Positions 5,803 through 6,739 of a stretch of DNA of 64,000 nt are shown in pieces. The DNA comes from Cellulomonas sp. APG4 (lineage in GTDB: Bacteria > Actinomycetota > Actinomycetes > Actinomycetales > Cellulomonadaceae): assembly GCF_009996735.1 (NCBI RefSeq), contig NZ_JAACYI010000002.1, forward strand, positions 62,001 to 126,000. The letters are read 5' to 3'. How positions within the stretch are numbered: position 1 is the first letter of the stretch; every line of letters starts with the position of its first letter. The position numbers and the translations under genes were made by a program. The notes under the pieces were generated by a model that had not been told where the DNA came from, did no database searches, and worked only from the letters and a program-made list of their open reading frames with translations.

Positions 5803-6480
5803 TCAGGACCCGCCGACCTGCTCGATGACGGCGTCGGCGACCTCGCGCATGGTCAGACGTCGGTCCATGGACGTCTTCTGGATCCAGCGGAACGACTCGG
5901 GCTCCGTGAGCCCCATCTTGGTCATCAGGAGCCCCTTGGCGCGGTCCACGCGCTTGCGGGTCTCGAACCGGTCCGCGAGATCGGCCACCTCGGCCTCGAG
6001 CGCGGTGATCTGGCTGTAGCGCGACATCGCGATCTCGACCGCGGGAAGCAGGTCGGCCGGCGTGAAGGGCTTGACGACGTAGGCCATCGCACCCGCGTCG
6101 CGCGCACGCTCGACGAGCTCGGTCTGCGAGAAGGCCGTCAGCAGCACCACGGGCGCCGCGTGCTCCTTGACGATCTTCTCCGCCGCCGAGATGCCGTCCA
6201 TCACCGGCATCTTCACGTCCATGACGACGACGTCGGGCGTGAGCTCGACCGCGAGCTGCACGGCCGTCTCACCGTCCCCGGCCTCACCGACGACGTCGAA
6301 GCCGGCCTCGCGCAGGGTCTCGACGACGTCCATGCGGATGAGCGCCTCGTCCTCGGCCACGACCGCACGTCGCGCCGGACGCGCCGCCTTGGGCTCCTCC
6401 GGCGCCTCGGTGGGGGTCTCGCTGAGCCCACCGAGGGGCAGGTCGAGCTCGGGGCTCTTCGGGGCGTCGCTCTCGGTCAC
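5803..6480 (-). CDS. pdtaR: ANTAR-domain response regulator, PdtaR-like
   Basis: A 225-aa response regulator: a disordered acidic N-terminus (1-38), a receiver domain (about 39-155) with acidic pocket VAEDEA and phosphoacceptor D88 in VVMDVKMP, and a C-terminal ANTAR domain (about 160-222) with the typical VDRAKGLLM and SFRWIQKTSM segments. ANTAR proteins bind paired RNA hairpins and prevent transcription termination; in mycobacteria PdtaR is the partner of the kinase PdtaS. No kinase gene is adjacent. The GTG start at 6480 is preferred because a -10-like TAGGCT (6493-6488) ends 7 nt upstream, implying a leaderless transcript; longer in-frame extensions run over the tRNA and are unlikely. Confidence 0.9.
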   Translation of the reverse strand: MTESDAPKSPELDLPLGGLSETPTEAPEEPKAARPARRAVVAEDEALIRMDVVETLREAGFDVVGEAGDGETAVQLAVELTPDVVVMDVKMPVMDGISAAEKIVKEHAAPVVLLTAFSQTELVERARDAGAMAYVVKPFTPADLLPAVEIAMSRYSQITALEAEVADLADRFETRKRVDRAKGLLMTKMGLTEPESFRWIQKTSMDRRLTMREVADAVIEQVGGS

Positions 6481-6493: not shown

Positions 6494-6607
6494 GTGCCGA
6501 CGTCGGCCCGCCTGGAACCGCGTCCACCCGCGCGTCGTGCGTGTCGGTGGTCACGTCCGGCTCCGCGCGGCCCGGCGTCGGACGGCGTCGCAGGAGTGCG
6601 CCGTCCG

Positions 6608-6681
6608 GCCCCGATAGCCCAACCGGCAGAGGCGTTCGGCTCAAACCCGATCCAGTGTGGGTTCGAATCCCACTCGGGGCA
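6608..6681 (+). tRNA. tRNA-Leu-like gene, anticodon CAA, short variable loop
   Basis: A full cloverleaf can be folded. The acceptor stem is GCCCCGA (6608-6614) with TCGGGGC (6674-6680), the discriminator is A6681, and no CCA is encoded. U8/A9 are present. The D-arm has a 3-bp stem and the loop AACCGGCAGA with the A20a-G20b-A21 pattern typical of leucine tRNAs. The anticodon loop is CTCAAAC (6640-6646) with anticodon CAA. The T-arm is GTGGG-TTCGAAT-CCCAC (6657-6673). The variable loop is only 5 nt (6652-6656), whereas normal tRNA-Leu is class II with a long variable arm, and the top anticodon-stem pair is U-U. Leucine identity is likely but unusual. Confidence 0.8.
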
Positions 6682-6739
6682 CGTTCCCTTTCCGCTCGAC
6701 GCACTGCGGTGCGCACACCGAAGGTGAGACCTCTCCCCG

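Follow-up and report, generated by a model that had tools for sequence, protein, structure and literature searches.

The window analyzed here, a stretch of 64,000 nucleotides from the genome of Cellulomonas sp. APG4, carries a gene for a tRNA-Leu(CAA) that has a class I body and lacks the long variable arm ascribed by textbooks to every bacterial leucine tRNA. Judging from sequence comparison, it is very probable that the product is a functional elongator tRNA, which reads UUG, is charged with leucine by the single ordinary leucyl-tRNA synthetase (LeuRS) of the genome and belongs to an old class I tRNA-Leu(UUR) family that is widespread in Actinomycetota and their phages. The features of the locus are as follows:

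6608..6681, + strand: tRNA-Leu(CAA), class I, 74 nt to A73 (ARAGORN; Rfam RF00005; kept in relatives with diverged flanks)
6617..6633, + strand: leucine-type D-arm with a 3-bp stem GCC/GGC and the loop CAACCGGCAGA, containing A14, A15, G18G19 and A20a (bracket structures of the 47 tRNAs of the genome)
6634..6652, + strand: anticodon arm with the anticodon CAA at 6642-6644 and a U27-U43 mismatch (6635, 6651), closed by G26-C44 (sequence; bracket structure)
6652..6656, + strand: variable loop CCAGU, 5 nt, with U48 paired with A15 (Levitt pair) (sequence)
5803..6480, - strand: pdtaR-like response regulator (receiver and ANTAR-type), divergent neighbor of the tRNA (homologues in 74 of 78 genomes of the class; alignment)

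Structure of the tRNA and the tRNA set of the genome

The only tRNA that ARAGORN reported for the window is a tRNA-Leu(caa), placed at 6608-6682 on the + strand. The Rfam model RF00005 matched positions 6608-6681 with 54.3 bits (E 6e-9) against a gathering score of 29, which identifies the RNA as a cloverleaf tRNA. As read from the sequence, the acceptor stem is GCCCCGA/UCGGGGC, the discriminator is A73 and the anticodon loop is CUCAAAC; a CCA end is not encoded. The D-stem has 3 bp and the D-loop 11 nt. The U27-U43 mismatch, which is closed in the ARAGORN structure by the outer G26-C44 pair, is retained in the Cellulosimicrobium copies and could weaken the anticodon arm. The complete cloverleaf, the CAA anticodon, A73, the 5-nt variable loop and the U-U pair at the top of the anticodon stem, all named in the original prediction, were confirmed. 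The 3-bp D-stem stood as well, but the A20a-G20b-A21 numbering given with it is one of two, since A20a-G21-A22 with a C13-A22 mismatch fits equally.

The variable region of 5 nt (CCAGU) contrasts with the at least 10 nt that define class II. All members of the leucine identity set, taken from PMC9976931 (A73, A14, the 15-48 pair, G18G19 and A20a), were found in the tRNA, together with the marks of the actinobacterial class I tRNA-Leu(UUR), namely A9, C13, C12-G23, an NNAGU loop and, for CAA, the pdtaR neighbor. The predicted fold is only mildly better than that of shuffled sequences (z -1.9); it is the covariance score and the conservation of the sequence that carry the case for the tRNA. A sigma-70/terminator scan, with a promoter model of the E. 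coli sigma-70 type only, revealed no promoter or terminator near the gene. A perfect 8-bp inverted repeat, GGACGGCG...CGCCGTCC, lies at 6580-6606 and ends one base ahead of the tRNA; it was rejected as a leader feature because it is absent from relatives.

The genome (3.74 Mb, 99.98% complete) gave 47 tRNA matches, with the window gene as the only CAA tRNA. A second, class II tRNA-Leu(CAA), for which the original prediction had proposed a search, was not found in this nearly complete genome. The only UAA tRNA (G000:C1:129665-129738) is also class I and matches the window gene in D-arm type and in the CCAGU loop, and the class II leucine tRNAs are of the CUN type only (CAG, GAG and UAG). There is consequently no long-armed UUR decoder in the genome. 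According to the 47 bracket structures, a 3-bp D-stem with an 11-nt loop is confined to Leu, Ser and Tyr tRNAs, which are all class II except for the CAA and UAA tRNAs. Two further tRNA genes of the genome deserve mention. The class I tRNA at G000:C44:108661-108732 has the anticodon AAG, for Leu CUU. Its acceptor stem, GCCCGUCG/CGACAGGU, is mismatched, and the tRNA is redundant with tRNA-Leu(GAG) and possibly decaying or mobile. A degenerate copy of tRNA-Gly(CCC) at G000:C10:1913-1981 may mark an integration site; the intact tRNA-Gly(CCC) is located on the same contig at 56655-56725.

Switching between class I and class II forms at the pdtaR locus

The start codon of pdtaR (6478-6480) is 127 bp from the divergently oriented tRNA. 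Of the 78 genomes sampled from the class, 74 gave a strong pdtaR match, and in 69 of the 70 loci read, tRNA-Leu(CAA) adjoins pdtaR as in the window; the conserved divergent neighborhood suspected earlier is therefore real. Named genomes have the same arrangement. TerC, located downstream of the tRNA, was considered as a conserved neighbor and rejected on comparison with relatives. The distribution of the two classes was determined by a survey of the pdtaR locus, which replaced a phylum-wide sequence pattern because the pattern misses tRNAs without C25 in the D-stem and many Streptomyces. Of 136 loci with a CAA tRNA, one per genome, 89 carried the class I and 47 the class II form; the named set consists of the 80 best-scoring loci and is not a random sample. 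The missing arm, which the original prediction set against the class II form of bacterial tRNA-Leu, is nothing unusual in this group: of the sampled pdtaR-adjacent actinobacterial CAA tRNAs, two thirds lack it, and so does the UAA tRNA of the window genome.

Class I CAA tRNAs were found at the locus in Cellulosimicrobium, Mycobacterium asiaticum, M. colombiense, Rhodococcus, Gordonia, Amycolatopsis, Kutzneria, Pseudonocardia, most Streptomyces, Kitasatospora, Salinispora, Catellatospora, Planktophila, Geodermatophilus, Blastococcus and Bifidobacterium. The class II form was found in Microbacteriaceae, the Arthrobacter group, Brachybacterium, Propionibacteriaceae, Nocardiopsis, Planotetraspora and two named Streptomyces (NRRL B-24085 and S. 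aculeolatus). On the pdtaR protein tree, the class label requires 21 changes, compared with at least 33 (mean 39) in 200 shuffles. As this tree is built on one short protein and is weak, the number of well-supported clades that hold both classes is the safer measure. Eight separate clades with at least 95% support are mixed: Streptomyces, Nocardiopsis and kin, Planotetraspora and kin, family f85, the Salinispora/Catellatospora group, family f80, Mycobacteriales, and family f74 with f79. One class II Streptomyces and two class I members of the genus share 88-89% identity on the pdtaR side of the locus and differ in the tRNA body. Class I and class II forms have thus replaced each other many times at the pdtaR locus.

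The UAA tRNA was compared in 50 named genomes. It is class I in Microbacteriaceae, the Arthrobacter group, Mycobacterium, Rhodococcus, Amycolatopsis and others, and class II in Streptomyces (bldA), Kitasatospora, Salinispora, Catellatospora and the outgroups Clostridium and Pectinatus. Streptomyces therefore combines a class II UAA tRNA with a class I CAA tRNA, and the Arthrobacter group shows the reverse; in the window genome and in Mycobacterium, both UUR decoders are class I. S. aculeolatus has, beside the class II bldA, a second UAA tRNA of class I size, in which U73 replaces A73 (G383:C93:306485-306529), and a similar second UAA tRNA was seen in genome G380. Class I CUN tRNAs exist but are rare (matches in 14 of 118 genomes of the class); most have the anticodon UAG, and one, in genome G255, is without the leucine D-arm. 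In Bacillota, no class I UUR tRNA was found among the GCAGA-type genes of 149 genomes, where the single match contains N. A GTAGA-type pattern matched 16 of 199 Bacillota genomes, all class II; with so few matches, the statement on Bacillota rests mainly on the 149-genome search, which covered GCAGA-type genes only.

The window tRNA is 97% identical to the genes of Cellulosimicrobium and of a genome named Sphaerisporangium cinnabarinum ATCC 31213 (QAPD01000003.1), with diverged flanks, and differs from both only by the compensatory change of A7-U66 to G7-C66. The pdtaR and tRNA genes of the latter genome are nearly identical to those of Cellulosimicrobium, and its sequence suggests that it is probably misnamed. 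It shares 92% identity with a class I CAA gene from a distant family (L088), 80% with the UAA gene of its own genome, and at most 79% with any class II CAA gene. These values place the window gene in an old CAA family. An origin by recent duplication of the class I UAA gene in the same genome, in which the anticodon changed and the copy replaced the class II gene by gene conversion, was dropped on these identities and is unlikely; the separate CAA family and the closer matches elsewhere (92% and 97%) outweigh the D-arm, CCAGU loop and CGG-loop-CCG anticodon core that the two genes have in common. It concerns the origin only and would be compatible with the functional reading of the gene, as would spread of class I CAA tRNAs from one actinobacterial lineage to another through phages or some other kind of transfer, followed by recombination into the pdtaR locus. 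The latter is a possible route, to which we give somewhat less than even chances. Class I UUR tRNAs occur in actinophages, in Felix-O1-like phages and on many IMG/VR contigs, and the switch within Streptomyces took place while the surrounding locus stayed alignable. However, the best viral match to the window tRNA among the sampled contigs is only 82%, and the same pattern would result if a class I gene had been kept from an ancestor and class II forms had taken its place repeatedly.

Of 80 viral contigs sampled with the pattern, at least 51 encode a class I UUR leucine tRNA that ARAGORN confirmed. A 77-nt class I leucine tRNA for UUG is present in Felix-O1-like phages of Erwinia and Salmonella, and prophages of M. 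abscessus have class I leucine tRNAs in TAG and CAA forms. The gene of Erwinia phage phiEa21-4 (295-371) has the same D-arm type; its host is a gammaproteobacterium, and E. coli-type hosts have class II tRNA-Leu. In family f80, a second type of class I CAA tRNA is present at the pdtaR locus in four loci (L093, L097, L100 and L107), with the acceptor GGCCCGG, the D-arm GGC/GCC and AAA for AGA. It resembles a mycobacteriophage CAA tRNA (74%). Arm loss in the leucine UUR tRNAs might be under selection rather than neutral, one conceivable reason being escape from tRNA-attacking toxins or from phage or host nucleases that grip long variable arms. We regard this idea as doubtful, although it would account for both the many switches at a single locus and the occurrence of the tRNAs in phages, which would be armless for the same reason.

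Leucine recognition, codon meaning and rival explanations

The two classes of CAA tRNA differ in the core. Class II members have G9, G13 and G12-C23, each in 46 of 47, and class I members have A9 (88 of 89), C13 (85 of 89) and C12-G23 (88 of 89), with variable loops ending in AGU or similar. The leucine positions are constant among class I members: A73, which is universal, in all 89, A14 in 88 and A20a in 87. Positions 15 and 48 are never mispaired (80 A-U, 9 G-C). The D-stem pairs 10-25 and 11-24 covary widely among the same 89 homologues. This pattern suggests that, when the arm was lost, the elements of the tertiary core (A9, C13, C12-G23 and the NNAGU loop) changed together to the class I type, the parts that bear leucine identity being kept. 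In E. coli, leucine identity rests on A73, A15-U48, G18G19 and A20a, with A14 named in a mitochondrial comparison, and LeuRS is independent of the variable arm (PMC9976931). Charging of the window tRNA by the one LeuRS encoded in the genome is therefore likely, and would use the kept determinants A73, A14, the 15-48 pair, G18G19, A20a and the 3-bp D-stem, the long arm being no determinant. Of the three options considered in the original prediction, a UUG decoder charged by LeuRS is thus the best supported; the odd recognition assumed there is not required.

UUR codons are scarce in the window, whose 34 gene-like frames contain 1,487 leucine codons, 21 of them UUR, so that little would be lost here if the tRNA were weak or silent; on the other hand, both UUR decoders of mycobacteria are class I. 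We expect the window gene to be expressed. In the methionyl-tRNA synthetase (MetRS) gene, UUG encodes the Leu of the conserved xLPDR[FY] motif, which is also Leu in the E. coli, human and archaeal enzymes. In the pdtaR genes of class I CAA genomes, 110 of 151 UUR codons stand in columns with a Leu majority, and most of the others in V, I and M columns; for class II genomes the number is 39 of 49. By these conserved positions, UUG means leucine in the host.

The remaining two options found no support. A tRNA-like RNA outside translation, for example a regulator of the ANTAR-domain gene pdtaR that is kept for its position, would fit the strict adjacency to pdtaR across the class, and ANTAR proteins are RNA binders. 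Such a role is nevertheless very improbable, as 47 of 136 genomes have an ordinary class II tRNA at this position, the stems of the full cloverleaf covary, and the genome has no other CAA tRNA. Equally improbable is charging by another synthetase (MetRS or another enzyme for class I tRNAs), with another residue at UUG and thus a local change of the code. The class I body speaks for it, as does an armless human Leu-CAA gene that is a mutated tRNA-Met (PMC8450103), but it conflicts with UUG at the invariant Leu of MetRS, with UUR codons in Leu columns, with the leucine-type D-arm and A73 throughout, and with a genome without any other UUR decoder. A UUG-reading tRNA charged with leucine by the ordinary LeuRS remains our preferred explanation.

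Significance and comparison with known systems

A 2023 review states that the long arm is present in tRNA-Leu everywhere but in animal mitochondria (PMC9976931), a rule that our survey of gene sequences contradicts. In our literature search, which covered freely available papers, we found no description of the class I UUR group; the sequences are public, and single cases may be known to specialists. A short-variable-loop tRNA-Leu(TAG) was reported in a mycobacterial tRNA gene cluster (PMC6582537), and long loops were described for tRNA-Leu-2, 3 and 5 of M. tuberculosis (PMC11541572), which implies that its other leucine tRNAs do not have them. A major bacterial phylum, including named Mycobacterium and Streptomyces genomes, thus breaks the long-arm rule, with many switches at one fixed locus. 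These switches are a natural experiment on how LeuRS and SerRS discriminate tRNAs, and bear on the core changes through which a class II tRNA can turn into a class I tRNA. They are also relevant to mycobacterial tRNA-targeting toxins that choose tRNAs by the variable loop. Annotation tools that use the arm as a leucine mark could flag armless tRNA-Leu genes as misassigned or as pseudogenes.

Compared with the bacterial class II tRNA-Leu, exemplified by E. coli tRNA-Leu and Streptomyces bldA, the window tRNA has the same anticodon, A73, A14, A15-U48, G18G19, A20a and 3-bp D-stem, but it is without the long arm and has A9, C13 and C12-G23 in place of G9, G13 and G12-C23. The class II tRNA is also the form with which it alternates at the pdtaR locus. 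Animal mitochondrial tRNA-Leu(UUR) is likewise armless and is read by LeuRS via A73 and A14 (PMC9976931). However, the mitochondrial tRNA is reduced, whereas the window gene is bacterial and chromosomal and has a full conserved core; the two presumably have separate origins. The tRNA-Leu(TAG) of the mycobacterial cluster (PMC6582537) is another armless actinobacterial leucine tRNA, but it is an extra isoacceptor in an accessory cluster, and the window gene is the only CAA decoder and lies in a conserved core locus. The human Leu-CAA gene similarly combines the CAA anticodon with the lack of a long arm; it is a hardly expressed tRNA-Met with a mutated anticodon (PMC8450103), whereas the actinobacterial gene has leucine features throughout.
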